A DNA stretch of 64,000 bases from Onthophagus taurus. Lineage: Eukaryota > Arthropoda > Insecta > Coleoptera > Scarabaeidae. The position numbers and the translations under genes are program-made. Shown here in pieces: positions 28,001 through 62,140 of the stretch. The stretch covers positions 2,542,001-2,606,000 of the forward strand of contig NC_091967.1 of assembly GCF_036711975.1 (NCBI RefSeq). The letters run 5' to 3'. The notes under the pieces are model-generated. The model did not search any database and was not told the origin of the DNA. It saw only the letters and a list, made by a program, of their open reading frames with translations. Numbering within the stretch: the first letter of the stretch is position 1; each line of letters opens with the position of its first letter.

Positions 28001-31000
28001 TCTTTGATCCCGAGCACATTGCGTTTCCTTTTCCCTCAATTGAGACATTAACTGGGAAATTTGTTCCAATTCTTTACCCTCTTCGTTGTTCTCCTCTTTT
28101 TTTGGCGTTGTTTGAGTTTCTTGACATTTATCAGATTTTCCAATAACACGTTCTTCCTATAAAAGAAATTCAACATCAAATTTTAATTTAAAAATTTTTT
28201 TTTAAATAAAATTACATTTTTTATTCGTGTATTTTCTGAATCTGATTCATTTCCTTTCGTGGCATCTTCAATTAATTCATTTCTTTTATTAGTGGTCGTG
28301 GTAAATCCAGTGTAAGACGTTTGACGTTGAATAAAATGTTGAGTTCGTTGAGATTTTCGCCTCTCCACTTCCAATTGGAGCGTTAACTCGTCGATGTTGC
28401 TTTGTAATTGTTCGCATTTTGTCTCTAATGTTTCAATATTTGAAGTTAAACTTTTAATGTGCTTTCGATCGGAAGCGTTTTCGACAGCCAAGCGGTGATT
28501 AGCTCGCTCTAAATCTTGAATATTTACTTCTAACTGTTCGTAAATTCTTAAACGGGAATCATTTACTTCTCTTAATGCTACGGTTTGTTTGGTTAAGTAC
28601 TGAAATTAAAATAAATTGTAAATAAATCATGAAATTAATTTAACGTTCTAACCTCAATTTCTTGGGATTGATCTTCGATAATGTTTTGTTGGTGCTTCAA
28701 CGAATTTTCAAGTTCTTTATTGCGTTCTAATAAAGTTTTTCCTAATTCAGCCGCTAAATGTAAATCTGTAATAAAATAAAATTTGTCAAAAATTGAGTTT
28801 TGTGAGGTTATGTGATTATATTGTTTAAAATGAGGTTAAATTCTAAACCGTTAATACTTTAAATTAGACTACAATACCTTATAAATTTGAATTTACGATT
28901 AAATCCTTCTTATAACGGGATTAATAAAAAAAAACTAACTGTCTCTGGGAAGAATCTGGATAATTTAATTTAAATAAACTAAAAAAAAAATGAGCTCAGT
29001 AAATATAATTCAAACAATATTGTTATTTTTCCCGTTAGAATTTCACACCAAAACGAGATATTATTTCAAACAGGAAATAACATATTAGAGTTAAGATAAA
29101 ATCGTTAAAAAGGATATTGTTATCGCGATGTGAATTAATTTTTTGGAAAGTAAAAGTCTTCCAGAATGCTTTCTATCTCACAAATTATTATCATTATTTT
29201 TTTAAAGTTTTATTTTTTAATTAAATCCGGTGGAAGTTGATTTGAAACAAACAATTAAAAGAGAAAGTTTAATTTTTTGACTTTTTATAGCAATTTTAAG
29301 GTTAGAAATTGATATGAAACTGTCATTTCGAGTTATTAATGTCGATAAAATAGATAACTTTGTTTTCGTTTTCCTCCTAAATACATCAATTTATATTTTT
29401 CGAAACTTATTATTTACTAATAATAATAAACAAATTAAAATTATAAATTATTTTATGAAGATTTTAAACAATTATTAGCAATAATAATGAGATTTTAAAA
29501 AAATAGATTTTTTTTTAGGTGTAATGTTGGTTGTCTATCTTTATAATGTAACATATAAATAGAAAATTACCTGTCCAAAGTAAAAGAAAGAAATAGTGTT
29601 AATAAAATATTAAAAAGTATATAAAAAGTATCGGGTTAGTCTAGTGGTTTTAGGGAGAAATGGTTCAAGTTCTAGGTATAGTTTTAGTTCTAGTTTGACA
29701 CTTACAGTGGCACTAGAACTAACATTAGGCTTAGAATTAGAAACATTTGGGTTTAGCCGTCTGAAGAGACGTACGGCTAAACCCGAGTGATTCTAGTTAT
29801 TGGTCTAGTGTTAGTCCAATAAAAATATACAGCAATCTAGCACTGTACAACAATTAAAACTAGAACTAACACTAGAACTAAAACTAGAAAGTTTCGGGTT
29901 TAGCCGTGCGTCTTCAAACGCTTTCTAGGTCTAGTGTTAGTTCTAGTTTTACATTAGCACTCTTACTATGTACAACTAATACTATACCAGTCTATACCTG
30001 GAACTAGAATCATTTGGGCTTAGCCGCACGTCTCTAAAGACGGCTAATCCCAAATGATTCTAGTTCTAGGTATAGTGTTAGTTCTAGTTTGACACTTACA
30101 CTGGCACTAGAACTAACATTAGACTTAGAATTAGAAACATTTGGGTTTAGCCGTCTGAAGAGACGTGCGGCTAAACCCGAGTGATTCTAGTTATTGGTCT
30201 AGTGTTAGTCCAATAAAAATATACAGCAATCTAGCACTGTACAACAATTAAAACTAGAACTAACACTAGAACTAAACCTAGAAAGTTTCGGGTTTAGCCG
30301 TGCGTCTTCAAACGCTTTCTAGGTCTAGTGTTAGTTCTAGTTTTACATTAGCACTCTTACTATGTACAACTAATACTATACCAGTGTATACCTGGAACTA
30401 GAATCATTTGGGCTTAGCCGCACGTCTCTAAAGACGGCTAATCCCAAATGATTCTAGTTCTAGGTATAGTGTTAGTTCTAGTTTGACACTTACACTGGCA
30501 CTAGAACTAACATTAGGCTTAGAATTAGAAACATTTGGGTTTAGCTGGTATAGTATTAGTTGTACATAGTAAGAGTGCTAATGTAAAACTAGAACTAACA
30601 CTAGACCTAGAAAGTGTCTGAAGACGCACGGCTAAACCCGAAACTTTGTAGTTTTATTTCTAGTGTTAGTTCTAGTTTTAATTGTTGTACAGTGCTAGAT
30701 TGCTGTATATTTTTATTGAACTAACACTAGACCAATAACTAGAATCACCCGGGTTTGGCCGTACGTCTCTTCAGACGGCTAAACCCAAATGTTTCTAATT
30801 CTAAGCCTAATGTTAGTTCTAGTGCCAGTGTAAGTGTCAAACTAGAACTAACACTAACTATTGGTCTAGTGTTAGTCCAATAAAAATATACAGCAATCTA
30901 GCACTGTACAACAATTAAAACTAGAACTAACACTAGAACTAAACCTAGAATGTTTCGGGTTTAGCCGTGCGTCTTCAAACGCTTTCTAGGTCTAGTGTTA

Positions 31001-33658
31001 GTTCTAGTTTTACATTAGCACTCTTACTATGTACAACTAATACTATACCAGTCTATACCTGGAACTAGAATCATTTGGGCTTAGCCGCACGTCTCTAAAG
31101 ACGGCTAATCCCAAATGATTCTAGTTCTAGGTATAGTGTTAGTTCTAGTTTGACACTTACACTGGCACTAGAACTAACATTAGGCTTAGAATTAGAAACA
31201 TTTGGGTTTAGCCGTCTGAAGAGACGTACGGCCAAACCCGGGTGATTCTAGTTATTGGTCTAGTGTTAGTTCAATAAAAATATACAGCAATCTAGCACTG
31301 TACAACAATTAAAACTAGAACTAACACTAGAAATAAAACTACAAAGTTTCGGGTTTAGCCGTGCGTCTTCAGACACTTTCTAGGTCTAGTGTTAGTTCTA
31401 GTTTTACATTAGCACTCTTACTATGTACAACTAATACTATACCAGTCTATACCTGGAACCAGAATCATTTGGGCTTAGCCGCACGTCTCTAAAGACGGCT
31501 AATCCCAAATGATTCTAGTTCTAGGTATAGTGTTAGTTCTAGTTTTACACTTGCACTGTCACTAGAACTAATATTAGAGCTAGAACGAGAAAAATGGGGT
31601 TTAGCCGTGCGTCCGAATGTTTCTAGTTTCAGATCTAGTGTTAGTTCTAGTTTTAGTTCAATAAAAATATGTATCATAGTGATATTTTATGCTAACTAGC
31701 ACTACCAGCCGTCTTAAGAGACGTTTTAGCAAGTATTCAAATTGAAATGGGAAAGAAATACATTATAAATGCACGTCAAGCAATGAGAGACGATAAATGG
31801 GAACATTTTTTTAAAGCAAAAAGGTAAAATCGTTGAACGTGAAAGGCAGCATGAACCAAATTTAATAGGTTCTATTTTTACTACTCTTAATTCATCCAAT
31901 AAGTGTGTAATAAGTATAAGATACAATTCCTTTTTCACTTTAATTTTATTAATTGCCTTAAATCGGTTCGAACCAGTTATCAGATTGTTCTTTGACTATA
32001 AATAATAGTTTAAAAGATAATGGATTTAATATTGCGTTTATGGAATGTAACATAACGCAAGTATTAACTGTTTATGTATCCCCATAAGGAATTTAATACA
32101 TCTTTCATTTCTATGTATTACTGCGAACTTTTAAACCTTTACAACACATACTTTCTAATATAAACATCTCTTTGGCACACAGAATTAATTTAAAAGTAAA
32201 AAAATTAAATTGTTAGGTAATATGTGGAAATAACTAGAAAAAGAACAAAATAATCTTTTTTAATTAGCTGTTTTAAATGAATCATTGGAATAATTTGTCT
32301 TAATAATAACCAAGTGTTTCTTGGATCACTTCTGTTTTTAATTAGCCATGTATTAATGTAACATGAGTAGAATATTTTCAAATGACACGCTTTTCAGATG
32401 CCAGTTTCTCTCAACATTGCGACGTTTATACAAACGGAAGTATATAAAAGGAATTAATACATGTTAATTACAAGGAAACTTCGTTTTAATAGCATTTCTA
32501 TGTAATTTTGCAAAATGATCACTTCTATTTGAATACATTAAGTTGGATATCTAAGTAGGTCCCACTTAAAACCGCATTTTATCCATCGTATAAATCTTTT
32601 TGCTACGCACTGTATATTTTATATAATTTTTAAATTATTTATCTATAAATTTAACCAAATCTAATAAAATAAATTACGTTTTATTTAATTACAAAATTGA
32701 TCGATTAAAATATAAAAACAAATTTAGTTAAAAAAGTGTTAAAGTACAATAGGTTAGAGGAGAGAGATAAAAATCATCAAGTACTTCACCGAGGTGAATA
32801 AAAAAATTTAATAATCTTGTATCTATAAAGGGTATAAAGTGTAATTTGTAATTCGTTTCTGGCGTGATTGGGTCAATAGTACAAAAATTTATTATACTAT
32901 AAAAAAAGCGATTAAAGAAAAAAATGTTTGAACATCATCAACTTGTCGGAGTCGAATTGAACATTAATTTTCGAGTAACTCTACGTTACGCAATGAAAAC
33001 GACCTCAATAGCAACTGTGCATAGAATTCCTTCGAGTGAAATTTAGGCTATACAAGATACAAGCCGACTGCAACAAACATACAATAAGGTAGCCGGAGGC
33101 TACTTTTAATGTTATATAAGGAGAAGTCTCTTCCGTTATACCAATATTTAAATAACAAGAAAAAAAATCGTTAAAGAAAAAGTTCCTCATTATTTTTATC
33201 ACTAATTTTAGATAATGAATCAGCTCAAATTTACATAAACTTTAATTTATTTTTTTAATATAAAAAGTTAATGTTTCTTAAGTGTTATTAATTTACCTTT
33301 CACTTTAAAGGTGTAAGAAAAATAACTGTTTTGTGTATAATTTAATAAATATCAAAATAAATAAAAAAGAGGCAAAAAAAATCGAGATAAATCATCTACA
33401 ATAGGAATGGTTATTAATCTTATCTAATAATAAAAACCAACGTAAATTTATCGCGCTACTCTATTAGAACAATATTTTTATCATCATATTTAATTAAAAA
33501 AGGATTGTTTCGCATCAAAAAATAAAACGAATTTCCTAAAAAATGTTAGGTATTTTTTTTCAATGTAGCTCACCTTCACTACCTTGCAAACATTCCAACT
33601 CGATACCATAGTCCCCCCAACTGTCCACCAAAGTACTTAAACCGGATGACTCAGCCAT
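25097..33658 (-). CDS. CDR2/centrocortin-like coiled-coil protein, isoform with the 33.6-kb first exon (737 aa)
   Basis: Exons: 33658-33574, 28765-28653, 28599-28216, 28156-27861, 27802-27655, 26284-25097; all borders are GT-AG and all phases agree. The signature DLHLAAELGKTLLERNKELE opens the second exon, then IEYLTKQT...YEQLEVNIQDLE, the coiled coil of the CDR2 family. More heptad-rich coil follows (ISQLMSQLREKE, LEIMQEQNKILERQ). The long last exon has LYLDLVQKYQALLEVH, ATQTDEMRLKPGSFLCTI and PEYRELFKEIFGVLNKA, the conserved C-terminal block, then a Ser/basic tail. Drosophila centrocortin is a centrosome and actin-furrow protein; vertebrate CDR2 is the onconeural antigen. The role here is inferred from family. 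Two further first exons (52.8 and 62.1 kb) can replace this one. The intron 28766-33573 holds the foldback array. Confidence 0.9.
26817..27194 (-). CDS. Hypothetical small membrane protein nested in a CDR2 intron (125 aa)
   Basis: An ATG-to-stop frame inside the intron between 27655 and 26284. The first half is basic and polar (NNNKKRRDSFKRLVEKEAI, then KRRFQQLL). The second half has one membrane-like stretch (VLWMMPATTFLSLLIEFCLYI), then aromatic and hydrophobic residues to KQTK. An AATAAA overlaps the stop codon. I do not recognise a family. Composition is better than most chance frames in this AT-rich DNA. An alternative terminal exon of the host gene is also possible. Confidence 0.35.
   Translation of the reverse strand: MWMLRGFQSLWPGHSIFSTSAYTFNNNKKRRDSFKRLVEKEAITKRRFQQLLSSAQPQIPSLTDTSTEELVDSEITVLWMMPATTFLSLLIEFCLYIKDRYLMPILVKSWKYSFLFVHFLVKQTK
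27357..27435. repeat. Two-copy tandem duplication, about 40 bp
   Basis: The motif AATAATTTGAGGTTATGATA followed by AACGTCACTTT occurs twice in a row with a short spacer, in a CDR2 intron upstream of the small nested frame. It may mark a promoter but has no known meaning. Confidence 0.6.
28766..29639. other. First part of the large CDR2 intron, nothing recognised
   Basis: AT-rich, with many short poly-A/T runs. No coding frame, RNA gene or repeat is visible. Confidence 0.4.
29640..31690. repeat. Foldback repeat array, about 390-bp units, with GACGGCTAAACC hairpins
   Basis: Direct copies of a unit of about 390 bp begin near 29808, 30196, 30862 and 31252. An inverted part lies at about 30540-30850. 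Each unit alternates CTAGAACTAACACTAGA runs with short palindromes such as TTAGCC...ACGTCTCTAAAGACGGCTAA flanked by AATCATTTGGG and its inverse. On either strand an RNA would fold into a series of stem-loops. No protein is encoded. Related pieces are at 21.35-21.55 and 57.8-58.3 kb. Confidence 0.85.
31691..33573. other. Remaining large-intron sequence before the 33.6-kb first exon
   Basis: AT-rich and unique-looking; no gene, tRNA-like fold or transposon end noticed. Confidence 0.4.
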
Positions 33659-34250
33659 CGTTATTCAAAAAAAATGACTTATATTTTTTGTTAAGAAAAC
33701 CCCAAAATCCAATCGATTCCCCTCATTTTATTTTTTGATAAAAAAATGTAAATTTGCAACCCCTCAATTCATCAAATCCCAAAAACTAATGTTGTAACAC
33801 CGCAAAAAATGTCAACACGTCTCAACCGCACCGAGTTCAAAACCGAACTGAATCCTGTTTCGTCGATCGTTCGTTTCGTTCCCTCACTCACTCGCTCATT
33901 CAACTAAAAGTACTTACTATAAAATATTTTCAAGGTGGGATAACAACTAACCTGTCGCTTAAAAATAAAGTGGAGGCAAAGTAAAAAGTGGAGAGGAAGC
34001 GATTATAAAATTTCCATTTATTGCGGTAGTAATTAATTAAAAAATTATCCTGTCAAAATATTCATTTTTTTTTAAATTTATTGTGCAATATTTTCCAAAT
34101 TATTAAGTTATTACTTTAAAATGATTTATAAAAAAATTAATTAATGCAATCAACCTTGGCTTTCGATTAATTACTTCAAAACATTTACAAAATAAAGTAA
34201 TGATTTGCATCAAAATATATTTATAACTTAATCAAACGAAAGAGTACTTT
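33659..34250 (-). promoter_or_regulatory. Probable promoter region of the 33.6-kb CDR2 first exon
   Basis: 33780-33910 is CpG-richer than its surroundings (repeated CGTTCG, CGATCG and CTCACTCGCTC blocks) just upstream of the ATG at 33658 on the minus strand. It is bordered by AT-rich DNA. No TATA box is clear. Confidence 0.35.
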
Positions 34251-34751
34251 TTGTAATTCGCTACGGTAATGGAAGCTATAACAGTACTCAAACGGGTGCT
34301 GTAATGAGACTCCTTACAGCATCCGATGCTGTAATGAGATTTTAGTAACATTTCATGGAAGCAGTTCAAGTTGGTGACATTGGGTCATTAATTTTTCTAG
34401 TTGTCAATGTGACAATTTTTGTCTATGGATGTTTAAACACGTTCTTAGCATCGAATACAATGATGAGGACATTGACTCTGAGCAATTTCTCTTATTTTGG
34501 GAGGTGTACATCAAACATTTTTTTCAGGTGAATATATTTTGTGTTTTGACAGTTTCTAATTGTCAATTCAAAGTTTCTATTTTCAAGTGTTCCGGTGTTA
34601 CCAACTGCTACATAGCTATTTCCCTACATTGTCAAAATTTACTTTATTTTTGTTAAAAAAAAGTATAAAAACGCGAATTACAAAAAATAGCATAAAAAAC
34701 ACGTTTCATAAGACTTAAAGCACTCATTCATTAAAAAACTCGTGGCTTTTT
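34251..34751. repeat. Dispersed repeat, copy A
   Basis: Runs from TTGTAATTCGCTACGG to a segment with ACTCGTGGCTTT. It contains ACTCAAACGGGTGCTGT, GTTGTCAATGTGACAATTTT and AATAGCATAAAAAACACG. A direct copy follows at 35234 and a rearranged copy is at 8.9-9.5 kb. An apparent plus-strand frame across part of it is not a credible gene. Confidence 0.7.
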
Positions 34752-35233
34752 AATCGCTTTTTAATATTTTTTTCTAATCGGTGTGTTGTGCAGATAGATA
34801 GGAAGCTTTATGACTTAATTAAAGTGTCAAGTCAAAAGAGACTGCAGCTTGGAATCCAAAGGAATCAGCCGACCACAGAATCGGGAAGAGATACCGGTGT
34901 TGGCAGGAAAGATCGAACTAATGCGTAAGTCATTTTATTAAGAACCTAAGAAGGTGGCAGAAATTACTATGCAACCCTGGACCCTAGATTACAAAAGAAA
35001 TGAAAATCCAATAGCTGTTTTATCAAGAGTAACAACCTGGATATTGTACAGAGAGTATACGCCTTTATTTAATAATGCCGAAGTGCTATAATCGACACCA
35101 TATCAACACAATATTAGATAGCACATCTTACAAAGCAAGCGAGCTGGGATTAACTTGCAGTGAAAGAGTACAATGTCGATTTATTAAATCGAGGCGCTCC
35201 AAGATCCGTTGTTAATGCTGTATAAATGTTTTT

Positions 35234-35731
35234 TTGTAATTCGCGACGGTAATGAAAGCTATTACAGTACTCAAACGGGTGTCTTTACAGCATCCGATGC
35301 TGTAATGAGATTTTAGTAACATTTTATGGAATCAGTTCAAGTTGGTGACATTGGGTCATTAATTTTTCTAGTTGTCAATGTGACAATGTTTGTCTATGGA
35401 TGTTTAAACACGTTCTTAACTTTCAATACAAGGTCCACAATGATAAAGATATTGAACACTGAGCAATTTCTCTTATTTTGGGAAGTGTACATCAAACATT
35501 TTTTTTCAGGTGAATACATTTTGTGTTTTGACAGTTTCTAATTGTCAATTCAAATTTCTATTTTCAAGTGTTACGGTGTTACCAACTGCTACATACCTAT
35601 TTTCCTACATTGTCAAAATTTATTTTATTTTTGAGAAAAAATAAGGATAAAAACGCGAATTACAAAAAATAGCATAAAAAACACGTTTCATAAGACTTAA
35701 GCACTCATTCATTAAAAAACTCGTGGCTTTA
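35234..35731. repeat. Dispersed repeat, copy B (direct repeat of copy A)
   Basis: Nearly identical to 34251-34751 with small indels. The 480 bp between the two (34752-35233) has no recognisable gene. Two same-orientation copies of an element flanking unique DNA could arise by segmental duplication. Confidence 0.7.
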
Positions 35732-35833
35732 CTACTCGTTTTTCAACTTGAATTCGTGCATTTCAAACGTGTCTTACGAAACTTGTTTTTTAATATACTA
35801 TTATCAATTATAACACATGGAGCCACCTGTATA

Positions 35834-36106
35834 GGGTGGTTCAAATTCGATGTCCGAATAGGCTATCTCGGAAACTATAAGAGTTAGAAAAAAAGTGGCT
35901 TATTTATGTCTAGATCCCTTTTTTTAAATAAAGAGAGATCTTGAACTGAAATAAACAGAGAATTTGATGACGTAGTCAAAAACATTTTTTCGGTTTTAGA
36001 TTTTGAAATATTATCACAATTTTCGTTTTTTAAATGGAAATAACCATTGATTATTCGCTTATTAAATTCGTTATTTTTTTCTGATTACAAAAATATAGGG
36101 TTCGAC
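35834..36106. repeat. Single terminal fragment related to the 12.9-kb mariner-type element
   Basis: AGGGTGG..CAAATTCGATGTCCG..TAGGCTATCTCGG matches the end of the element at 12894 at many positions. Only one end is seen and the copy fades out near 36100. Confidence 0.5.
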
Positions 36107-36115
36107 AGGTTTATA

Positions 36116-36475
36116 TCTTATTGTTTTAGAATAAAATTAAAAATAAACTCTTATTTTAGGGTCGTCGAAGAAATTAAATTTACAGTTTCCTGTAAATTAC
36201 GCTACTATTGCTAAAAATTAAAAAAACATATTTCTCCAATCCAAAACAATGCAATTCATTAAATATTTCCGTATTAACAGTTGGTGTAATAAACATAATT
36301 ATTTGTTTTTAAATACCAGAAAAATAATACCGCCTAATTTAAATACCAACCCGTAATTTACAGGAAACTGTAAATTTAATTTTTTCGACAAAACTAGATT
36401 TTGGAGGAATATTATAAAAAAAGTTATTTTATTCTATTATTTTATTCGTTTTACATTTATTCTAAAACAATAAGA
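36116..36475. mobile_element. Foldback MITE, about 360 bp
   Basis: TCTTATTGTTTTAGAATAAA at the left is inverted at the right end, and TTACAGTTTCCTGTAAATTA appears inside both arms in opposite directions. Half an element is present at 24135-24260. Confidence 0.55.
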
Positions 36476-36639
36476 ATTTTGTACACGACTACCTTATAAT
36501 ATATACCTTATGAATGAGTTTTCTAAAACAAAATGGTTGTCATTATTCACGGAGTGAAAAAAAAACGTTCAAAAAACGTCAATTTAATTCAATTTTTTAG
36601 GAGTTTCTAAATGTTTGACATTAAAAAAACCTAAACAAA

Positions 36640-36830
36640 TTCCTTTTTTTATATGATTTAAGCATAAATTAATTAATTTTCGTAAAGAAAACGACGTTTT
36701 ATAAAACTGACACTTAATTTTGACAAATTGTTGTGAAGTTGGTTACAGTTAGTAACATTGAATTTGTGTCACATTGACGTTTAACCTTTATTCAAAAATT
36801 TATTTAAAAAATAAATTTATGGAATCAATT
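36640..36830. repeat. Inverse copy of 9340-9540
   Basis: TTCGTAAAGAAAACGACGTT, GAAGTTGGTTACAGTTAGTA and TTTGTGTCACATTGACGTTT are the reverse complement of the repeat at 9.3-9.5 kb. No coding capacity. Confidence 0.6.
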
Positions 36831-36861
36831 TTAATAATCGTGGACAAAGTATAGTATTCTA

Positions 36862-36966
36862 CTCGTATATAATGAGCTATTATTCACTCAGGTTAATTAT
36901 GCCACTCGCTACGCTGGTGACATAAACTTAACCTTCGTGAATAATAGCCCTCATTATATGCTCATA
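36862..36966. repeat. Near-perfect 100-bp inverted repeat (long hairpin)
   Basis: AATGAGCTATTATTCAC...AGGTTAATTATG pairs with CATAAACTTAACCT...GTGAATAATAGCCCTCATT around a central CACTCGCTACGCTGGTG. The stem is about 45 bp with few mismatches, flanked by ATAT on both sides. It looks like a tiny palindromic MITE. Confidence 0.7.
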
Positions 36967-37439
36967 TAATAATATACTATTTTTTGTTTGGTAACTAAAT
37001 TATAATACTTGATTACATATTTCTGGTAAATAACATAATAAAATTTCCATATTTAAAATATTTGAGAAAAAGAGAGTTAGAAAATCTGAAACTAGAACTC
37101 TTTCTTTTAAGATGAGTACCAATAAATACATTAAATATTTCCGTTTGAGAAGAAAATGTGGATAAAATGTCATCGAAAGGAGAAGCCATTTCCAATAAAG
37201 ATTGGATACAACGAAAGCTAATGTATTGTGGTTTACCACTTTTAATTGTTTCTGCGTGATTCCTAAAAGGCTTCGTTAACGATTGCGCGGTATCAACACG
37301 AAGAAAGATTCATCATCTAGTTAAGTTTTACGTTTTTCGAAATTATTTAATTGTGGTCTGCGATTTTGATACAAAGTGAAAACTTAAAAAAAATGGACCG
37401 CAAGCAACATCGATTTAATAAAATAACATCGTATTTATC
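36967..37439. other. Intronic stretch, no gene supported
   Basis: AT-rich. A minus-strand frame at 37000-37239 has a hydrophobic composition without a recognisable domain and is most likely chance. Confidence 0.3.
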
Positions 37440-46051: not shown

Positions 46052-49000
46052 CAAGGGAAGTGTCACAACTGTGTCTCACCGATTTCGATGCAATTTGGTA
46101 CAGTCATAGAATGGGCCAAAATAAGGTTCGCACATTTTTTTATACGTGCGGTAAAAGCCCCTGGGGCGAGTTATAGGGGTTGAAAGTTTGGAGAAAAAGT
46201 ACGTTTTCACTTATATTTTGAAAACGAAAAGTGCTATCAAAATTTGGTAAATTGTAACTGATATTCATTTTAAAAGAGCTTTCTTTTGATGTGTCACACA
46301 TATAGCAGAGGGTTAAAAAGGGCGAACTACCCCTATTTTTTTGGAATTATTTAAAAACCACCCTATCGATTTTGGCGGCATTAAGTATACTTCTAGTGCG
46401 TTCAAAAATATTAGTTAAGGGTTTTTTCCCATTCGCCCTAGATCAACCCCAGCGAAGTTACGGGGGTTAACATGTAAGCACTTTTCGTAAGAATGATGTG
46501 ATAAAATTGTCAGGTATTTTGAAAATACTTTAAACAAAACCGTAAATTAGTCGCACAATAAAATGTTTAGTGTAAAATAAGGCATAATACACCATATAGG
46601 GGTTGTTGGGGTTATCCACCCCCTTAAAAATTAATTCTATCCCGGGCGTTATTTGTCGATTACGGCGAAATTTGGTACTGTGTTTGTTTTATATTTGAAG
46701 TAAAAATTTTTGAAAATGGTTATAAGGGTTACAAATTAGGGGTAGTTTTTTGTTTATACCTCGAAGATGAAAACTGCCATCGTAACTGTGGTATTGTTTT
46801 TTAAAAATCTATCTATCGATGTTCCACGAGGTAAACTACCCTCATTTTCTTTAAATAATAAATATAAAACTACTAGATAAATAAGATATTTTATTTATTT
46901 ATGAGTTAAAAAGCAACTGACAAAAAAAATAGTTCAATATACCAAAGAAGTTTATTCTACATTACTAATTGACGTTTTTTATGTATTATATTAATTTTCA
47001 ATATTAAATTTATTTTTATTCTACGTAGTGTTGGCAAAAATGAAAGTCGTGGAAAAAATGTTTTAAACATAAGGATTTTTTACACCATGCACATGTTATG
47101 ACCGCTATATCCCCACAGATATCACACGTTGGCTTCTCACTCGAAAAGCAAACTTCCACGGGATTTTCAAAATGGTCTGGTCTCTCCTCTATATAGCCAC
47201 TTGCAAACCATGCGTATTTAAAAACATTTATAAACCGAGGGGAAGCCAACTGGTTATGCGTCAACGATTGCAATTTTAATATGTTATCCCTCTGATGTAA
47301 ATTGACATCATACTGGTAAAGAATAATCTGATCAGAGAATCTTCTAATAAAATTTTTCCATATTCTGAAACCAAATACATCTAGGGGCTGTATTTGACCT
47401 GTTGTCCCTGCAGGTATAGATAAATGTTTAAAATTAGTACCTGATGGAGTTATTTCACTAATAACTTCAGGACAATGGCCACTCCAAGAATCTAATAATA
47501 ATAATGATTTAGAACCAGTATTTGGAAAATATACATTTTGGAGCCAATTTTTCATGTGTTCTGAAGTTAACTTTCCAGATTTTGATGCCAAAACGTATAT
47601 ATTGTCTGCTTTAAACATTGTATTTGCTACCCTCGGTCCAAAGCTGCCAGAGGGTTCTTTTAAAACAATAAAAAGTGGAGAAAGAAGTTTCCCATCAGCA
47701 GATATTACGGGTTGAATTGTGTAACTGTGCGTTGTAGATGACACCGACTGGACCACACTTTCTACGGTTTTAACTCCTAAATCGCTTAATGTTCTTCCCG
47801 AATGGAATTCCAAGTTAAAACCGCTCTGATCCGAATTGTAGGTGTTTTCAGGTCCATATATTTGGATTTGTAGCTTTGCCTCTTTAACGAAATCTTTTGC
47901 TAAAGTTTTTACTCGATCAACATTTCCAATTTGTTTTTGGGATAGAAATTTTGTTATTTTTCGGCTTACTAACCGATTTGCTTTCTTAAAACGTTGCACC
48001 CAGCTATGAGATGCTTTGAACAGTTGAGGAGATAAATTCTTTTCATTTCTAGCTTGTATAGCCCATCTGCGTATATCAATATCATGTAGTGGCAATTTAT
48101 TATCTACGGCGGCTCTCGCTTGATTAATTACAAATTCGGTAATTTCTGCTAATTTTTCTTTGTATGTCCCTCTTTCTTCAATATATTTAGACCATCTGTG
48201 CAATTGGGTCTTTGACGTTACTTTTCGGTATTTGTTTTTTACGGTTTCTAGTTTCAAATAACCTTTCTTCCCACTTGTCCAGTAATTTACCGCCTCTAAT
48301 TTGTACTCGTAGTCGATGTCATCCTTCAATGGACAATGAGCATCAGTATCTTCTACAAACCTGTCAGTTGTATCCTGGTCTTCAATAATTTGCTGACCGT
48401 CATTGATGCCATTGGATGAATCGAAAATTAATACAGTTTCGTCTTCAATTTGCATATTGTAGTCTTCCATACTTTCCATTAAAATACGCTGTATATTTTC
48501 TTTTAAACTAACTTCTGCTTCATTTACAGGAGTCTGGGGAATATTCATAACAGTAAAAACTGTCATTAGCAAATTTAAAACGTTTATTGGGTTTATTGTA
48601 ACCATTGCTTCTGTCAGTTGCTCTGAAACTAAAATCTACCCACTGGGCACACGTTCTTTTATACTAGAAAAAACTATTTTGAGAAATGACCTTTAGCAAG
48701 CGGCACTAAAAAAACAAATATTGTGCCAAAATTTTTTTGGTAGGTGTATTTTTGGCAACATTATGTAGAATAAAAATAAACTTAACAATGTTAATGATGT
48801 GATAGAGAATTTCTATTTATTCTTTCATTAATTTTCCTTTATTAATAAAGGAATTTTATAGAAGATAGGAAAAAAGTGTTAAATTAATGAAAGAATAAAT
48901 TTAACATTGAACATAAAAAACGTCAATTAGTAATGTAGAATAAACTTCTTTGGTATATTGAACTATTTTTTTTTGTCAGTTGCTTTTTAACTCATAAATA

Positions 49001-49843: not shown

Positions 49844-49846
49844 TTA

Positions 49847-50005: not shown

Positions 50006-50570
50006 TTTAAGAGAATGTTCAGAAACTATTTTAATGTTTTTCTATGCTACAATTACAATTAATGTTGATGTATTGTACATTAATGGATTCAGAAAAAAAA
50101 ACTCTATCCAATAGCGTGAAGAAAAACATACTGAGCAATTTGAAAATCAAATGTTGATAATCGCTAGAAATTGAAGATGGCGTTGGAAAAAGTTTATTTG
50201 TAGCACGAATCATAGTATTCATCAAACCATTTCATTTGATAGCTAGGTCATGAAAATTGGAAGGTAAATGACAGAGGCGTTCTTGTGTGACAACCAACTA
50301 AACTTATATTCAAAATGGATGTAATGCATATCAGTGGATTCAGAAAAACAATCTCTATCCAATGACGCAAAAAAAATATATAGAGCAATTTGAAAAGCAA
50401 AAATTAATAATCGCTTAAAATTGAAGATGGCCTTGGAAAAAATTTATTTGTAGCATAAATCATAGTATTCATGAAACCATTTCATTTGATACCCCGCTCA
50501 TGAAAATCGGAATGTAAATGACGGAGTTACAGCTTGGGGCGTTTTTTGTGTGACACCCTGTATAAATATA

Positions 50571-51567: not shown

Positions 51568-51569
51568 TA

Positions 51570-52754: not shown

Positions 52755-52812
52755 CATCCAAAACATTATAATCGTCGTCGATGAAATCGTCGCAACCATT
52801 TAGAACGCTCAT
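52755..52812 (-). CDS. Alternative first coding exon of the CDR2/centrocortin-like gene
   Basis: The ATG at 52812 opens MSVLNGCDDFIDDDYNVLD plus one G, ended by a GTATGT donor at 52754. The single leftover G joins AT at 28765 to code Asp, giving ...NVLDD-LHLAAELGK. Acidic, as are the other two candidate N-termini. The 230 bp upstream is CpG-rich (GCGTCG, CGATCGACG, CGCGACGGCGCGG), as expected of a promoter. The product would be 728 aa. Its intron to 28765 is about 24 kb. Confidence 0.6.
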
Positions 52813-53319
52813 CGTGATCGAAGATTACACCCCTAAATTTCTTTTCCCATGCAGAAACTAGTTTTAAAAATGAAAATATTGTTAAATTTAATTTGCAAAA
52901 TAATGTTTTTATATTTACCGGTTTCAAAACGATGGTTAAACAATACTATAGTATACTTGCATGCGTCGTTCTTGGTTAAAAACTGACGATCGACGTCCAA
53001 AACAAAACGAAATCGCGACGGCGCGGTTTTAGTTTAAACTCCGCCTACTAAATATACTAATATCGATCGTCTTATAACGTAACCTTCAAAATAAGTACGA
53101 TAAAGCGCCATCTATTGGTAATTACAACAAGTGTTACTATTTTAACCAATGCGAAGTTAGCCCCCAATTAAATAGGATTTTATATGTATAGTATTTTGAT
53201 TATTCGAGTATTTTTGGCCACTATAGTTGAAATATGAGAAGTTCTGGGAGTTTGGTGAGCTAATTCAAAGTGTCTTAAGGACTGACATATCTGACACTCT
53301 TCAACATATCACTTGAATA
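52813..53319 (-). promoter_or_regulatory. CpG-rich promoter-like region of the 52.8-kb exon
   Basis: 52950-53060 is CG-rich for this window and lies just upstream of the exon on the minus strand. No clear TATA box; 53100-53319 is AT-rich without features. Confidence 0.35.
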
Positions 53320-53650
53320 TGTTATGAGAGAAACTGGAGTCGATCTAAACGCAACTTTGATGAACTAGTCGAAATGGCAGATGATTTTAACATCCTTAGC
53401 AGATCAATGCAGGTATGCAGTATGAAATGCAGATACATGCTAGAGACACGAGCTGCAAAGGAAATGTTTCTGAGACAACCAGGAGGAAGACGCATGACTG
53501 GTAAACCAAGAGCAAGATGAGAGACAAGGTGACCAAGGGCGCTGAGGAGATTGTACGGATGAGAAGCTGGAAGAGAGTGGCTGGAGATCAAGATTTCGAT
53601 GAACATCTTATTCCAAAGCTTAATCCTTGGCCAATACGAATGTGGTAATG
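53320..53650 (+). mobile_element. 3' remnant of a non-LTR retrotransposon
   Basis: Broken frames read RQPGGRRMTGKPRAR and then, shifted, W-rich and R-rich pieces ending DEHLIP. A GRP..RW-like tail of this form is typical of RTE-type retrotransposon C-termini. It is short, frameshifted and dead. Confidence 0.5.
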
Positions 53651-55311
53651 CCTGATTCAAAACTTCTTCCAACATGTTGCTAAGACATCAAAATATTTAT
53701 TATCAAGCATTTTGCAAAGAAAACAGTTCCGAATATGTCATAGAAAATAAGGCATATGTATAATTAAAAATAAAAAATATTAAAAAAGGTAGACATTAGT
53801 AGAAAATGAATCAAATAGGGATTAGTTGATTTTTGGACATTCTCCAAATGAAGAAAAAGAACCTGTCGCATTATAAATCGTTGACATTGACCTCGGACTA
53901 TGTACAGCGTCGAGGAGCGTAAGCAATTTACCTTCACCGCGAGAGTCCCACCGAGTTAGAGAGGCCGCGTTTATTTTTAACAGTATCTTATAGTATATTG
54001 CAGAAATTGCAACTCGCACAAAAGCAAAACCAATATCCTATCTAAAAGGTAGATTTTAAATTTGAAAAAAAGACGCCGGCCGCGAACCGCGCGAAATAAC
54101 GAGGAGAAAAGCAATGCAAAAAAGGACTTAATAGAAAGTTTCGTATCAACTCGACATCCGCACCTAACGACATCTATTTTGCCAACAAACAAAATGCTAA
54201 ATCAGTTCCAAGTTACATTCTCGAAATTAATTGCATATATTATAGTTCAACATAAATACAACATTAAAAACGTTTTTAAAAAAAATTATGTTTTTAGAAA
54301 ACTAATTAATTAATAATATGTCAAAAATGACATAAAAAACTAACCTTACTTTTATAAATAGTTATGACATTCAAAGTAAATTTAAAATGGTTACCATGGC
54401 AATAAACTTATAGTACACTGAATTACCAATGAGAATGTGTATGTGGTTATAATTCATAGCCTGCTAAGGTATTCAAAGAATCGAGTTGGTTTGTTTAGCA
54501 TATAAGCAGCAAGCAAAAACGGTTAACATACCAAAGCGGTTGCGTTCAAACCGGTACATTGTCGAAATAAAAGATCATGTTTTTGAACGGTAAATAAAAA
54601 TGCGTTTTATAAATTAAAGCTTAAATAAAGTTATTATTCTCGTTGAAAAGTGAGAGTTTAAAAACACCCACGTAAACCGTGGCGAATAAATGACCTTTTC
54701 TGATCGCCGGCCGCATAACGATCCTTATCCGACAGGATATATAACGCACTTTCAGCAGGTGCCTTATTCGGAAGAAAGTGATCGGATCTAACCGCTATTT
54801 TTTTTGTTTCCTATTAAATACTTTCTAATGCTAAAATATATCCTAAGGGGTTAACTCTATTTTTTTTTAAATTTTTCAAAACGTCATTATGTATTATTCA
54901 TGTTCAGGCAATAACATTTTAAATTTTAATTTGGAACTCGTCCAGAAAGAAGAAAAAGGTTAAAAAAAAAGGTTAGAAATTCACATGAAATCGTCTTCAC
55001 TTTGAGATGTTATTAAATTGATGAAAGTGAAAGGACCGTTAACAAAATGTTGTTGGTCACCAAAAGCGGAAGTGATGGAATCCGTAATCGGTTTCTTCAA
55101 TCGATCAATCAATGCCTCTTTCTACTGCGTATCTCTGGATATAGATTTTTATGAAAACATGACCTCAAAAACGTGAATTAAAAGTGAACGGAAAAAAAGA
55201 AACAACTGGAGTGAAAAAAATATCATTTAAAATTTGTCTACTTTACTTGGAGAATGATAATTAGAGATATAGATGGATGAAGCCGAGGTTGCTTGCGGGC
55301 GAGGTCCTATA
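53651..55311. other. Intronic region, some promoter-like patches, no gene
   Basis: 53930-54090 has G+C-rich blocks (GAGGCCGCG, GCCGGCCGCG). A minus-strand donor at 53932 would have the CDR2 phase but lacks an ATG in frame. 54500-54790 includes GATATATAACGC followed by a less AT-rich stretch. 55281-55300 has the GAGGTTGCTTGCGGGCGAGG block. I see no gene. Confidence 0.3.
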
Positions 55312-55392
55312 CAGGTGTCCCGTATCTTTCGCATCAGAGTATTATACGGTTGTAGGATACATTAATCTGAAGCGATCTTTACGGGACACCTG
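55312..55392. mobile_element. 81-bp palindromic MITE with TA duplication
   Basis: CAGGTGTCCCGTATCTTTCG at one end, inverted as TCTTTACGGGACACCTG at the other, with TA on both sides. An inverted partial copy is at 57645-57718. Confidence 0.65.
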
Positions 55393-55604
55393 TATATCTT
55401 GTAAAGGCAAAGATTAAAGAGTAAACAAGATGCGACGCTTCATGTCGACACCTTTGATGTAGGGCTGCCATTTTTATGACCTTGAACGCTATGGACCTTT
55501 AAATTGGAATGGTTTGTTATTGTCAGGACATTTAAATTGGTCTTCTATCTTTTTTCAAAAATAGAGTTTCTCACTCTAGCGTCGCATCTTGTATATGTTA
55601 GAAT

Positions 55605-57170
55605 CATATATATACTATCTCCTATATCGCTGACTCCCTATCTAAGCAATGAGTGGCGAGCGTTTCCATCAAAGGCAGACGGAATGATATATGTTTTGTC
55701 TTTGTCGTGCCCCCATATCGCGAAGGCGCTTGCGCGAATCGTAAATTTTAAAGAGTTTGAAGTGTTTTACGCGTATTTTATGCAGCTTTGAAATACAATT
55801 ATTGTAGATAATTTACTTTAATTATAAATTATCGTAGATGCATCAAATAAATTAGAATATATGTACTTTTGTGTGAAATTGACGTTGAATATTGCTTTAA
55901 ATATCAACTTTATGTAGGTTGTTCATTAAACATTATATTCTTTAAAATTAAATTAATACATATACAGGGTGATTTATAACATACGGAGCAGACTAAAAGA
56001 GTAGGTAGTGGAGATAAAACTGAAGAGATTTTCTTAATAATGTTTTGTTAAAAACTTAATAGTTACATAGATATCGCATGTTAATTTTTTAAATAATTGA
56101 ACGTCCATTTTTGAGAACCGCTGATATTCAGTAAAGAATAATTAAAATACTTGTCCGTTGCTAAGTAACCAAATCAACTGGATTGGCAGCAATAAAAACA
56201 TGGTATCAGCGGTTCTCAATAAACAAACACCACCGTTTGAGCGTTTTAACAAATTTTTAAATAGCCGTAACTGCTATGTTATAAAGATTTTATTATTTTT
56301 ATTAATTATGCATTGTTTAAGTAACCCCGAAATATTCGCAGTTTGAATTTAAGCGTAGTGTAATACCGTATATGGTAAGAAATGCTCGGCCATTACTTCA
56401 ACTTTAACGTTCTATATCTTTGTGATTATTAAGTTGTGGTCAAAATTTTATTAGAAAAATATCTTCAATTTGGCTCCTAGTACCTACCCTTTTAGTCTGC
56501 TCCGTATGTTATAAATCACCCTGTATACATAGTAATTATTAAAAATGTGTACCAAAATATAGTTATTAATTTTTAACATAATTTGTGAACTCACGCCCTT
56601 TAATGAAGTTGTTACATTAATTAAAGATATAAAATATGTACTTAGGGTACTTATTATTTAATGTACATAATATTCTATCATAAAATTTTCATCATATCGA
56701 TGTAATTATTAATTAAATTTTTAAGAAAAATGTCAACCAATTTTCTCAACCAATTTTTAGGCCCCAAAAATATCTCCCCTACTCTTTTTCTTTTTTATTT
56801 TACTTTTAACAAATTTTCTTCACTTTCTTAACAAATAATAATTACATTTTAAATTGCTTAGTCCTAAAATATGTTAATAATTATGTTATTATGCACATGA
56901 AACCTATAATATACATAACTAAATATTTAGATTTTATGTTATGTTTATGTCAAACATTTATTTGGTGATTATTTATAAACATCAAGGTCATCAGCTGCTA
57001 TTAATTTTTAATTCACCGTCCAATAAGATAAAAGCGTACTCACCACGTGTTCACGCATGTCTCTTGAGTAGACGGGGGCACGACAGAGACAGATATATAT
57101 ATATCTGCACTCTAGTGTTTACACTCTTTTGTTGCCTTAGTCAGCGATATAGGAGATAGTATATATATGG
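55605..57170. mobile_element. Inverted-repeat element, copy 2, enlarged by a nested MITE
   Basis: Same ends and interior as 22185-22866. It is flanked by TTAGAAT on both sides (55598-55604 and 57171-57177), a different target from copy 1, so the two moved independently. It is longer because of a MITE at 55965-56523 and about 380 bp of other AT-rich DNA. Confidence 0.72.
55965..56523. mobile_element. 559-bp Tc1/mariner-type MITE
   Basis: CAGGGTGATTTATAACATAC and its inverse GTATGTTATAAATCACCCTG are flanked by TA on both sides (55963-55964 and 56524-56525). No coding capacity. Confidence 0.8.
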
Positions 57171-57829
57171 TTAGAATATACCAACTGTCACATTTGTAGG
57201 TTCGGTTTGGTATTGTCAGGACATTTAAATTGGAATGTCTTCTATTTTTTTTCAAAACTAGAGTTTCTCACTCTAGCGTCGCATCTTGTTTACTCTTTAA
57301 TCTTTGGTAAAGACACAGAATAACCAGAAGTGACAGTGGCAATATCCCGCCAAATCTGACGCCATATTATAGCGAGTTACCAAGGTATGTTGCTATTGGT
57401 GGTAAAGATTTGGCGGGATACCGCTAGTGTCCATTATGCCCATTATGTATGGAATATAGCATATATCTTGGTAAGTATCAACTTTATAAAAAAACATTTT
57501 ATACAAAAGTTGTTTAATATTTTATTTGGCATAATAAGGCTGCATTCAATTGTTTTTATTTCAGAAAACAAATGAGCAACGAATAACACTTGATGTTTTT
57601 TAAATGGCAATGTATTATAAACATTTCGAAAAAATTTTATTAGAAAGATCGCATCAGAATAATGTATCCTACAACCGTATAATGCTCTGATGCGGAAGAT
57701 ACGGGACAGCCTGTATACTATATTCCATACATAATGGGCACCCTGTATAATCTAATATACGTACTTTTCTAATACGTATATTTAACGTTTCAACTACTTT
57801 AATAAAAATATACAATAATCTAGCGCTTA
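57171..57829. repeat. Repeat-derived stretch after copy 2
   Basis: 57205-57290 is a direct copy of 55515-55595 (GTCAGGACATTTAAATTGG, CTCACTCTAGCGTCGCATCT). 57360-57395 matches 21243-21280. 57645-57718 is an inverted copy of the 81-bp palindrome. No gene seen. Confidence 0.55.
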
Positions 57830-58290
57830 ATAACAATGAAAACTAGGATTAACACTAGACCTAGAACTTGAATCATTTGGGTTTAGCCACACGTCCTTAA
57901 AGACGGCTAAACCTGAATGATTCTAGTTCTAGGTCTAGTGTTAGTTCTAGTTTTACACTAGCACTATTACTATGTAGAACTAACACTATACCTAGAACTA
58001 GAATCATTTGGATTTAGCCGCACGTCTCTAAAGGCGGCTAAACCCGAATGATTCTAGTTCTAGGTTTAGTGTTAGTTCTAATTTTACACTAGCACTATTA
58101 CTATGTAGAACTAACACTATACCTAGAACTAGAATCATTTGGATTTAGCCGCACGTCTTTAAAGACGGCTAAACCCGAATGATTCTAGTTCTAAGTATAG
58201 TATTAGTTCTAGTTTTACACTAGTACTATCACTAAAAGTAACACTATACCTAGAACTAGACTCGCACGTCTTTAAAGACGGATACGTTTA
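57830..58290. repeat. Second foldback array of the GACGGCTAAACC family
   Basis: About three tandem copies of a unit of about 120-130 bp. Each holds ATCATTTGG-TTTAGCC, ACGTCT..AAAG-CGGCTAAACC and CTAGTTCTAGGT, plus TTACACTAGCACTATTAC. The same building blocks form the larger array at 29.6-31.7 kb in a different order. Confidence 0.8.
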
Positions 58291-60993
58291 CAACAACAGC
58301 GTTCATAGGGAGTTGGATAAAGCTTATACAGTATATTTACTCAACGGACCTTGATTCTGTGCATTTTGGTACCTCGTGATAAGATGGCGGATTTTAAATC
58401 GAGGTCACAAAACAAGATGCCGCCAACATCAAACGAATCGACGTCAGTGTCATTTCTGGTTATTCTGTGGTAAAGATGACAAGTCGCTTGTGGTAGAGTC
58501 TTTCAAAGCAACCGTTTTTTGATGATATATCAAATCTACCGCCTCGGCCGCAGGCAACCTTGGCGATTTGAAGCGAAATCGTTCTTCATATAACTTGGTA
58601 AAGATACAAAATCTTTTATAAGAAATATTTACGCTTACTCCGCCAAGGTTGCTTGCGGGCGAGGCGTTGGAATCCTCTAAAACTGATGATTAGGCGTAGA
58701 TATATCAAATGCAAGCGACCTCGGCGATTTGTGGCGAAATTATTTAAGATGTAGTCTCTAAGAAGACATTTATCCTTAAACAGGCAAGGGTGAGAAAATC
58801 TTGAAAAGTTACAGTAAGATTATCGATATATACTTCTTGGGATTAAAACCACTTAGAATCTTGTACTATTATTAAGGAAAAGATTCAATTTTAAGATAAG
58901 TTTTAATTTTTTTCCAACTCTTGGAGAATTTAACCTACAAAATAGCAAAAGATCACAATAATCTTGGTAATCAAAAAGTGAAGTGAGTGAACGGAAGAAA
59001 ATACTAATAATAATAAGAAAACGTTTCGCGATTTCGTGCCTGATCAAGACCCGGTTTTTGATTAATCTCGAAAGCCTCCCGGGTGGGAAGCAATCTATTT
59101 ACCAAAGTGTCAAGATTTTTATCTAATAATAACCGGTATTAAAGACAATTTCTTTCTAGAAATTTAAGAGAATGAAAGTTTCCGTTTTAAATCATGAAGC
59201 GGAATTTCATAGGAAAAATGTATTTTTTCTGCATCAAGTCGCGGATAACTGTTATTTTAAGCTTTTGCCTCTTAGGTGTGTACAGAAACGAACGGTTCAA
59301 AGATATTCAGTAAAACGGAACGATTTAAAACCTGTTGCGAGTACACGGCTCGAGGCATAAATTACCCTTCCAACCGTTTTGCACATTAATTTCAGTTAGA
59401 AATTCCAAACGAGTTTGTTATTTATCGAGTTCTATATCGTTCAAAGTGGTGTGAGTAATAACATGACAGAGTAAAAATATGTTTTACGCAAGACGCGAAC
59501 CGATTCAAGAGTAAAATTGAATGAGAATATTTGACCTGGTTTTCTTGTGTATCTCGTCAATCTTTGAAAGAATTACGGTGGTAATTATTATTACATATTA
59601 TAGATAAATAATAAAATAAGTTAAAAAAAACTAAAATAGAACGAGACAATTTTGCAATCAATTTTGCTTTCAAAACACTAATAATGTGATTATTCGCAGT
59701 TCTTTTTTAAGTAAATCGTTCTGTTTATTGCTAACTTTATTTAACCTCTATGGAGAGACCTTTCACTCTTAATAGAAACATTCACATAACAAGTTTTTTT
59801 TTTCTGCTAATATTTAAAACACCTGGATTGTGTCCATGTAATATTTACACATATGCAAATTAAATGATTCACTCTCTATATCTATATTTAGTCGTTTTTT
59901 ATTAACAAACTTTCGTTTGGAATTGACATTTATTTTAAATGAAAAAAACATTAATACATCGTTTTGCTTTTAAGGGAAAAACAAAAAAAATATTATTTAA
60001 AAATCGTTTAAAGAAATCTAAGAACCGAAACGAAGTTGTTACATAATTATTAAGGATATCTAACAAAACGGTTACAGAAACATGAACAAGTAGATCAACC
60101 ATCATTAAATACCACGTCTATAATAACTACAACTTAATAGTGTAGAGTCCGGTGTTAAAGGTGTTATTAAATTGAAATCCGTTCGTCTGGAGTTGTTGTG
60201 GTGAACGTTTTCAAAATGGTAGGAGGTGCACCTCGTCTCATTGTAGGACATCCGAAGTAAAAGGTGTTTTATAAAATAAGAAGTCATTATTAACGTTGTA
60301 TCAAAATTCTGTACAACCTTTGTTTTGTATTTATGAAACATATATGAAGATAGGCATTTACCCATAAATGGCCCTAGCTGTTAATGTAATTACAATCAAA
60401 TCGCGTCATTGGCACCAAAATATATAAAATCTTCGCCTGTAAGCGACCTCGGCAATATACTTATAAGAAGACATTTACCCTCACTTGCGGGCGAGGTGCT
60501 GAATTCCTCTAAAACTGATGATTATGACAACATTAATTCCTGCTGGGGCGTTTTCAAACGCTGGGTAGCTTTGTTTTGACATGATGTCAATTGCAGGGCT
60601 TCGGCTTAATTAGGTAAATAAAATCCAACGTCATCTGTTGTTGATTTGGCCGAGGTTATTTCTTGTTTGGACGTTTCCAGCCGATGGACAGCAATCAAAT
60701 GTATAGAGTCCTAGAAGAGTAGTTTGCAGAGCATGTTCTGGCTTTAAGGTATTGAGAGGTCATCGTTTATCGGTTCTAATGTTGCTCTTCCTTTATCCGA
60801 ATATTTCTTGAATGAAAATTTGAATGAAATATATAATATATATTAATGTCTTGATTCAATAAAAAAATCTTTATATTTGTTTCCCCTTTTTTCAAAGAAG
60901 ATGAAATCTTTAACAATTATGATTATTTATGTGTGTCTTAAATCTTCTCAATGCTTTTGATATCACCTATACAATCAACGAAGTAATTGTCAA
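58291..60993. other. Intronic/intergenic stretch upstream of the Na,K-ATPase beta gene
   Basis: 58540-58740 and 60420-60510 contain GCGGGCGAGG-type blocks in both orientations, each near CCTCTAAAACTGATGATTA. 58400-58480 is partly the inverse of 57310-57340. The remainder is AT-rich. No gene is supported; the plus-strand frame at 59172-59360 lacks any recognisable domain. Confidence 0.4.
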
Positions 60994-61050
60994 ATGTGGC
61001 AGTTATTAACCTCCTCTTTTATCAACTTTATCAATAACACCCATCAAAAA

Positions 61051-61929
61051 ATGAGTTTTTTTAATCGTTGGCGATACTCTTGCAAAGAAAACTGGTTAAA
61101 ATGTTGTAAATTTACTTATAACAAAGAAACGGGTGAATGTTTAGGAAGATCGTGCAAGAAATGGTTATCATTATTGGCATTTTACCTGTTATACGTCTTA
61201 TTCACTTTAAGCGGTTTTTTTGGAATTTTATTCGTAATGGTACATATCATGGAGGAACAGGGTTTGGATTCCTTAAAAAGTAAATTAACTTTATTTACCG
61301 GCGCTTGTCCTGGATTAGCGATCATACCGAAATTATCGTTACAAAAAGCACCACTTTTGTGGTACAAATCGGACGATCCGAAAACGCAAAATGAATACGT
61401 CGAAAAAATCGATCAATTTTTAGCCAAATATGATGGTAATAAAACAGGAAGTAACGTTTATGTGGATTGTTCGAAAACGAAACGAAGACGTGGACAATAT
61501 TGTACTTTTACTAGAAACGATTTGGGACCATGTGGTAATTCAAGTTATGGTTATGATAGTTTTCAACCGTGTTTTTACATAACATTAAATAAAATTATTG
61601 GTTGGGATCCAAAAGATTATCGACCTGAAGGAAGCTCTGATTCTGATCGTATTGAAAATGAAATAATTATGGTCACTTGTAAAGCGATTCATCATTATGA
61701 TGCAGAACATCTTGGACCAATCAAATATTATCCTACCAATGGATTTCATGAGTATTTCTTCCCTTACGATGGTTCTGATTTGTATCTTCCCCCTGCCATA
61801 GCTGTACAATTTCCGGAAATGAAAACCGGTTATGTTATTGGTATTAAATGCCTAAGTTATGATGTTGGAATCAATCGAGATAATGAGGCTTATTACACCG
61901 ATACCGTTTACATGTATATTAAAAACTAA
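61051..61929 (+). CDS. Na+/K+-ATPase beta subunit, intronless, nervana-like (292 aa)
   Basis: A single uninterrupted frame starts at MSFFNRWRYSCKENW, with A at -3; an upstream ATG at 60994 would add 19 residues. A short cytosolic N-terminus (FTYNKETGECLGRSCKKW) is followed by one membrane helix (LLAFYLLYVLFTLSGFFGILFV). An extracellular domain comes next with PGLAIIP, NKTG and NSS glycosylation sites, Cys pairs (DCSKTKRRRGQYC, GPCGN..QPC and a late KC) and the family end YTDTVYMYI. As a type II protein it would stabilise and deliver the pump's alpha subunit to the plasma membrane. Insect nrv genes usually have introns, so the intronless form suggests a retrogene. It lies antisense within the CDR2 intron of the 62.1-kb isoform. 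Confidence 0.9.
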   Translation: MSFFNRWRYSCKENWLKCCKFTYNKETGECLGRSCKKWLSLLAFYLLYVLFTLSGFFGILFVMVHIMEEQGLDSLKSKLTLFTGACPGLAIIPKLSLQKAPLLWYKSDDPKTQNEYVEKIDQFLAKYDGNKTGSNVYVDCSKTKRRRGQYCTFTRNDLGPCGNSSYGYDSFQPCFYITLNKIIGWDPKDYRPEGSSDSDRIENEIIMVTCKAIHHYDAEHLGPIKYYPTNGFHEYFFPYDGSDLYLPPAIAVQFPEMKTGYVIGIKCLSYDVGINRDNEAYYTDTVYMYIKN

Positions 61930-62061
61930 GATTTAAATAAATCAAAAAATTAATTGTCTTGTTAGGTTAAAATTTTTGACACTTAAACGTCAAATGTCAT
62001 TTTGACGTTTAATACTGAAAATTATATTTTGGCGAAATTTTTTTAATTAAAAAAAACTTAC

Positions 62062-62140
62062 CTGTTAAAGTCCATTCGTTTCGAGATGAATTGTCACAAA
62101 GTGTTGACCAATCTAGTTCTAATTCATCAAAAGACGCCAT
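62062..62140 (-). CDS. Most upstream alternative first coding exon of the CDR2/centrocortin-like gene
   Basis: ATG (62140-62138) begins MASFDELELDWSTLCDNSSR and runs to NEWTLT plus one G. A strong GTAAGT donor follows at 62061. Phase 1 is exactly what the AT-starting exon at 28765 requires, giving ...WTLTD-LHLAAELGK and a 735-aa protein. It is acidic like the other two N-termini. The intron would be about 33 kb and would contain the Na,K-ATPase beta gene. A separate small gene with an unseen partner exon is the alternative. Confidence 0.55.

Follow-up and report, generated by a model that had tools for sequence, protein, structure and literature searches.

Three candidate alternative coding first exons for one CDR2/centrocortin-like gene in Onthophagus taurus

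Introduction

The window analysed here, a 64,000-nt stretch of the Onthophagus taurus genome, raises the question of where a coiled-coil gene on its minus strand begins, and whether the encoded protein has one N-terminus or several. CDR2, CDR2L and Drosophila Cen presumably share a coiled-coil start of the DLxLAAELGKTLL type that is preceded by a short and acidic N-terminal leader, which is also the arrangement found at this locus. We take the N-terminal segment of the CDR2/CDR2L/centrocortin family to be DLxLAAELGKTLL(D/E)RN, a start of the kind carried by exon 2, and we likewise assume that a block of the PEYxxLFKEIF type lies in the C-terminal part of the family, to which RPEYRELFKEIF in exon 6 would correspond. 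On the basis of these family sequences the product appears to be CDR2/centrocortin-like, although it would differ from CDR2, CDR2L and Cen, as compared, in that three leaders stand on one gene. Pfam, which holds no model for CDR2, gave no family above the cut-off for exons 2, 3, 4 and 6, and Rfam gave no match in 24-64 kb. No relatives were found in collections of genome contigs or plasmids, and the single match in viral contigs (35 residues, 46%) was set aside as a chance coiled-coil match; as these collections are not eukaryotic, nothing about orthologues follows from the absence. A member of the family would be expected to localise and act at the centrosome or ER. The function of Drosophila Cen is described in PMC9210305 and PMC8595238, the former of which contains none of the words isoform, exon and promoter.

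Results

The constant body of the gene, exons 2 to 6 (28765-25097, minus strand), forms a single open frame with consensus-like acceptors and donors, and three ATG-bearing exons upstream of it are all in one phase with its acceptor. The features are as follows.

33658-33574, minus strand: exon A, candidate proximal coding first exon, 85 nt, donor AAG/GTGAGC
52812-52755, minus strand: exon B, candidate middle coding first exon, 58 nt, donor ATG/GTATGT
62140-62062, minus strand: exon C, candidate distal coding first exon, 79 nt, donor CAG/GTAAGT
28765-28653, minus strand: exon 2, first common exon, acceptor TTACAG, opening with the CC1-box-like DLHLAAELGKTLLERN
28599-28216, minus strand: exon 3, coiled coil, gene model with the frame kept
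28156-27861, minus strand: exon 4, coiled coil, gene model with the frame kept
27802-27655, minus strand: exon 5, gene model with the frame kept
26284-25097, minus strand: exon 6, last coding exon including the stop codon, gene model

Each of the three upstream exons runs from its ATG to a single G ahead of a usable donor, and this G combines with the AT at 28765 to form the Asp codon of DLHLAAELGK, in frame in all three cases; the preliminary description of the locus was correct in the coordinates, orientation and phase that it gave for them. It had also described the encoded peptides as short and acidic, and this was borne out: before the terminal G, exon A encodes MAESSGLSTLVDSWGDYGIELECLQGSE (28 residues), exon B encodes MSVLNGCDDFIDDDYNVLD (19 residues) and exon C encodes MASFDELELDWSTLCDNSSRNEWTLT (26 residues), with six D/E in each tip and 0, 0 and 1 K/R, respectively. 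An in-frame stop lies 9 nt (A), 15 nt (B) and 30 nt (C) upstream of the ATG. Since exon 2 lacks an ATG and the constant part has its first Met only in exon 5, a full-length protein requires a coding first exon, and the proteins predicted from the starts in A, B and C comprise 737, 728 and 735 aa, each with one terminal stop. Splicing to the acceptor at 28766/28765 would span 4.8 kb from A, 24.0 kb from B and 33.3 kb from C. When the 290.8-Mb own genome was searched with the 115-aa core, the matches were its own two exons only, and no second copy was found. That exon A is a first exon of this CDR2/centrocortin-like gene we regard as nearly certain.

Promoter-like sequence upstream of the three exons comprises an Inr with a DPE at A, an Inr with a CpG peak at B and no clear core motif at C. 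The matches are as follows.

33822-33851, minus strand: core-promoter match for exon A, Inr TCAGTT (A at 33849) with DPE AGACG at +28
52979-52986, minus strand: initiator-like TCAGTT (A at 52984) for exon B, within a CpG-rich block

The Inr of exon A sits 191 nt before the ATG of that exon, and of the window's 20 minus-strand TCAGTY only those at 33849 and 13053 have RGWYV at +28. The TCAGTT of exon B lies 172 nt before the ATG and is without a DPE; the 400 nt upstream of B have a CpG observed/expected ratio of 2.26, which is at the 99.7th percentile of the window and makes this the sole outstanding block. No TCAGTY occurs within 700 nt upstream of exon C, where one TCATTT without a DPE was found. 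CpG-richer blocks had been claimed just upstream of both nearer exons, which holds for B but not for A, whose upstream 400 nt (84.0th percentile within the window) are no richer than those of C (92.9th percentile).

Several other elements were seen in and around these leaders. Upstream ATGs precede all three start codons on the minus strand (33658-33849, 52812-52984 and 62140-62400), with two short uORFs for A, two for B, and four upstream ATGs for C that include a 38-codon uORF, counted from an assumed start at 62400. Other genes may start at two further TCAGTY matches with AGACG at +28, at 13053 (minus strand) and 15177 (plus strand). Next to the promoter-like block of exon B, about 150 nt from the Inr on the upstream side, is the terminal part (53131-53203) of a dispersed repeat.

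Exon 2 ranks first among the exon candidates entered in phase 1 on the minus strand between about 62 and 28.6 kb (total score 35.8, against 19.3 for the next; coding score 21.0), in a search that required an acceptor of at least 5 and a coding exon of at least 30 nt and that is blind to shorter or noncoding exons. The second-best score belongs to a 48-nt acidic stretch at 35874-35827 (VSEIAYSDIEFEPPYT), which is in phase 1 on entry and exit; it was rejected as a fourth candidate, being a high-copy repeat (1188 first-look genome candidates, of which the best 40 were scored) with no in-frame ATG after its upstream stop. A Pfam scan covered 31 of the 34 minus-strand ORFs of at least 60 aa in 33.7-62 kb, the other three being antisense to the Na/K-ATPase beta ORF, and the sole sequence to pass the cut-off was a Tc5 transposase, the only recognisable gene body among them on that strand between C and exon 2. 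Exons A and C each have a single match in the genome, namely themselves, and the 39 other matches listed for the region of exon B (the best 40 of 614 first-look candidates were scored) all fall at 53203-53131, none touching B. There is no sign of a common origin of A, B and C in local alignments, which scored 13-15, or 21-28 with flanks, without a shuffle control, though this does not disprove one.

These results bear on the alternative that survives best, in which A is the first exon, whereas B and/or C are genuinely transcribed but belong elsewhere, for instance to short peptides or noncoding RNAs. Exon C, in particular, might be an upstream antisense transcript of a divergent Nop-domain gene, which we take to be Prp31-like and whose ATG (63034) is only 0.9 kb from the exon; divergent promoters often yield short transcripts. 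Without splicing, the ORFs at B and C would comprise 21 and 43 codons, respectively, and the coding score of C is weak. Against this, both B and C have phase-1 donors, an agreement that chance would produce in one case in nine once A is given, and no exon candidate outside repeats comes near the score of exon 2 within the limits of the search described above. We consider this alternative unlikely.

The three-fold agreement in phase and orientation had been put forward as an argument against chance, and in that role it fails. On the minus strand between 28.8 and 63 kb there are three phase-1 candidates with a donor of at least 8.05 bits, whereas 200 dinucleotide-shuffled versions of this sequence average 1.285 (P(>=3) = 0.18); at a donor of at least 11 bits there are two, compared with 0.18 (P(>=2) = 0.025). 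Phase and donor counts alone are weak evidence and do not set the locus apart from chance. The donors score 11.1 bits (A), 8.1 bits (B, the weakest of the three) and 13.2 bits (C, above all of the 756 random candidates described below), and the coding scores fall at the 99.3rd (A), 99.1st (B) and 88.6th (C) percentiles among the same 756. Among the window's phase-1 candidates no longer than 120 nt, a small codon model ranked A 3rd, C 10th and B 37th, and the majority of the other candidates fall in known coding stretches. The coding score of exon B depends on the model, with values of 1.6 (small codon model), 9.8 and 8.6 in three scorings.

Acidity is more discriminating against same-genome controls. 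Chance peptides in A+T-rich noncoding DNA are basic on average (net acid fraction -0.069, sd 0.108). A filter for stretches of 52-100 nt in phase 1, with a donor of at least 8 and a net acid fraction of at least 0.19, these thresholds being post hoc and placed at the weakest of the three exons and the donor matrix being drawn from general knowledge, passes A, B and C and no other candidate on the window's minus strand, and nothing on its plus strand. It passes none of the 756 candidates from eight arbitrary 10-kb places in the same genome, taken on both strands (160 kb of strand sequence). When 30-200 nt were allowed, 3 of 794 candidates passed in the stretch (0, 3 and 0 in phases 0, 1 and 2) and 3 of 5168 at the random places (1, 2 and 0), the latter being two 10-residue peptides and one 52-residue stretch that is apparently a real coding exon; about 0.43 phase-1 passes would be expected per 34 kb, for which our own arithmetic gives a Poisson P of about 0.01. 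With the donor lowered to at least 6, the stretch gave 15 passes (3, 8 and 4 in phases 0, 1 and 2) and the random places gave 2, 3 and 0; sorted by donor site, the passes in the stretch are A, B, C and four sites within the Tc5 transposase ORF (acid fraction of at least 0.15). Given the post hoc thresholds and the origin of the matrix, these results serve as supports and not as clean P values. They argue for the coding status of A, B and C, and by themselves do not tie B and C to this gene.

It might be proposed that A alone is real, and that at B and C an open stretch merely happens to end in a donor and was noticed because such exons were being looked for. The shuffles, which yield about 1.3 such stretches each, and the modest donor of exon B would agree with this proposal, but it must also accommodate the absence of any pass among the 756 random candidates, and on the antisense strand at these thresholds, the position of exon B in the block most extreme in CpG observed/expected ratio together with an Inr, and a donor at exon C that exceeds every random one, and we judge it improbable. 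Transcripts that begin further upstream might use A or B as an internal exon, in addition to or instead of its role as a first exon, so that the products would not be simple alternative N-termini. An acceptor-like AG (AACTAG), noted by eye in the 5' leader ahead of exon B, favours this idea, yet it is very improbable, since translation entering those frames from upstream would end at the stops that lie 9 nt (A) and 15 nt (B) ahead of the ATG.

The introns themselves contain a number of other elements. Just before the common acceptor, intron 1 holds a dispersed repeat (29650-31680; 5186 first-look genome candidates) with nested inverted repeats, including 312-nt arms that are 100% complementary and 277 nt apart; once transcribed, this repeat could fold into long hairpins close to the splice site. 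The high-copy repeat at 35827-35874 (minus strand) provides a 48-nt stop-free stretch with an acceptor and a donor and phase 1 on both sides, which would be a ready-made cassette exon if it were ever spliced in. The putative introns of isoforms B and C both enclose, in sense orientation, a Tc5 transposase frame of 539 stop-free codons (47019-48635, minus strand), with HTH_Tnp_Tc5, DDE_1 and Transp_Tc5_C in Pfam. Nested in that of isoform C, on the opposite strand, is also a Na/K-ATPase beta-chain gene (60961-61926, plus strand; Pfam 3.2e-50) that apparently has no introns.

The N-terminal coiled coil of exon 2 includes the AAxxG of a CC1-box (DLHLAAELGKTLLERN, compared with DLVLAARLGKALLERN in BICDR1 and QAAEYGLAVLEE in BICD2). 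A 40-aa query matched four BICDR1 sequences, aligned from DLVLAARLGKALLERN, at E values of 0.5-0.7, which are not significant, as well as one designed protein (E value 5.6). Exon 2 resembles BICDR1 112-148 from its first residue, at the level of a motif (E value 0.5), and BICDR1 was not among the matches listed for the longer 115-aa query. Like the CC1-box adaptors BICD2, BICDR1, Spindly, TRAK and HAP1, the predicted protein has AAxxG and then LL in an N-terminal coiled coil; unlike them, it has no significant similarity to BICDR1 outside the box, and the LIC-helix binding and dynein-dynactin activation of such adaptors would be putative for it. Drosophila Cen reportedly acts with dynein, and our literature search found no such report. 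According to excerpts of the published work, the CC1-box of BICD2 comprises residues 39-53, EKIQAAEYGLAVLEE (PMC7655957), its conserved Ala and Gly bind the dynein LIC helix (PMC7655957, PMC5841405), HBS1 and Spindly motifs lie downstream in CC1-box dynein adaptors (PMC7615804), and CDR2 has itself been called a dynein adaptor (PMC13231004, citing Teixeira et al. 2025).

Discussion

Phase, donors, acidity, single-copy sequence and the lack of any other recognisable acceptor gene on the minus strand make promoter-switched first exons the best reading of A, B and C, and the core-promoter matches at A and, more weakly, at B also support it. The minus strand thus probably carries a single CDR2/centrocortin-like gene whose three alternative coding first exons are distributed over 33 kb. 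Several points speak against three starts, namely the weakest donor at B, the weak coding score, missing TCAGTY and 38-codon uORF of C, and the presence of an opposite-strand gene and transposons in introns of 24 and 33 kb.

In the proposed arrangement, each of the three first exons would be under its own promoter, at 33.7, 52.8 and 62.1 kb, and a transcript from any of these starts would have its first exon, including B and C, spliced to the acceptor at 28766/28765. Each isoform would then have an acidic tip of its own, 19-28 residues long, immediately ahead of the point where the constant coiled coil opens with its CC1-box-like segment. Because the splice junction adjoins the box, the tips would be three interchangeable caps ahead of a putative docking segment, and we infer that they may modulate the place or the strength of the protein's engagement with dynein. 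Promoter-switched N-termini on a centrosomal coiled coil, as originally suggested, therefore stand as the best reading without the phase argument and the CpG block at A, whereas "centrosomal coiled coil" needs widening: with a constant part that opens at a CC1-box-like segment, variable tips on a putative dynein adaptor are the more pertinent inference. Only tentatively do we suggest that promoter choice swaps the residues before the CC1-box and so gives three dynein adaptors that differ in motor engagement, regulation or targeting. If this were true, the isoforms could be, for example, germline/embryo, neural and general forms, each tip would cap the docking helix at its N-terminus, and a motor adaptor would be tuned via the choice of transcription start.

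With several ATG-bearing first exons of the same phase and one common acceptor, the locus is like alternative-promoter genes with coding first exons, although, unlike in the known examples, its promoters are predicted from promoter-like sequence. Alternative starts and alternative first exons are common and of a known kind, so a three-start gene would be a sound finding of an ordinary kind; its sole unusual part is the position of the presumed switch, adjoining a putative motor-docking motif. If real, the three forms would be natural variants within one gene and would allow a clean test of the effect of the leader of the CC1-box on dynein recruitment. Moreover, single-promoter models of centrocortin/CDR2 genes may then overlook isoforms that begin tens of kilobases upstream, with first exons located beyond transposons and opposite-strand genes.
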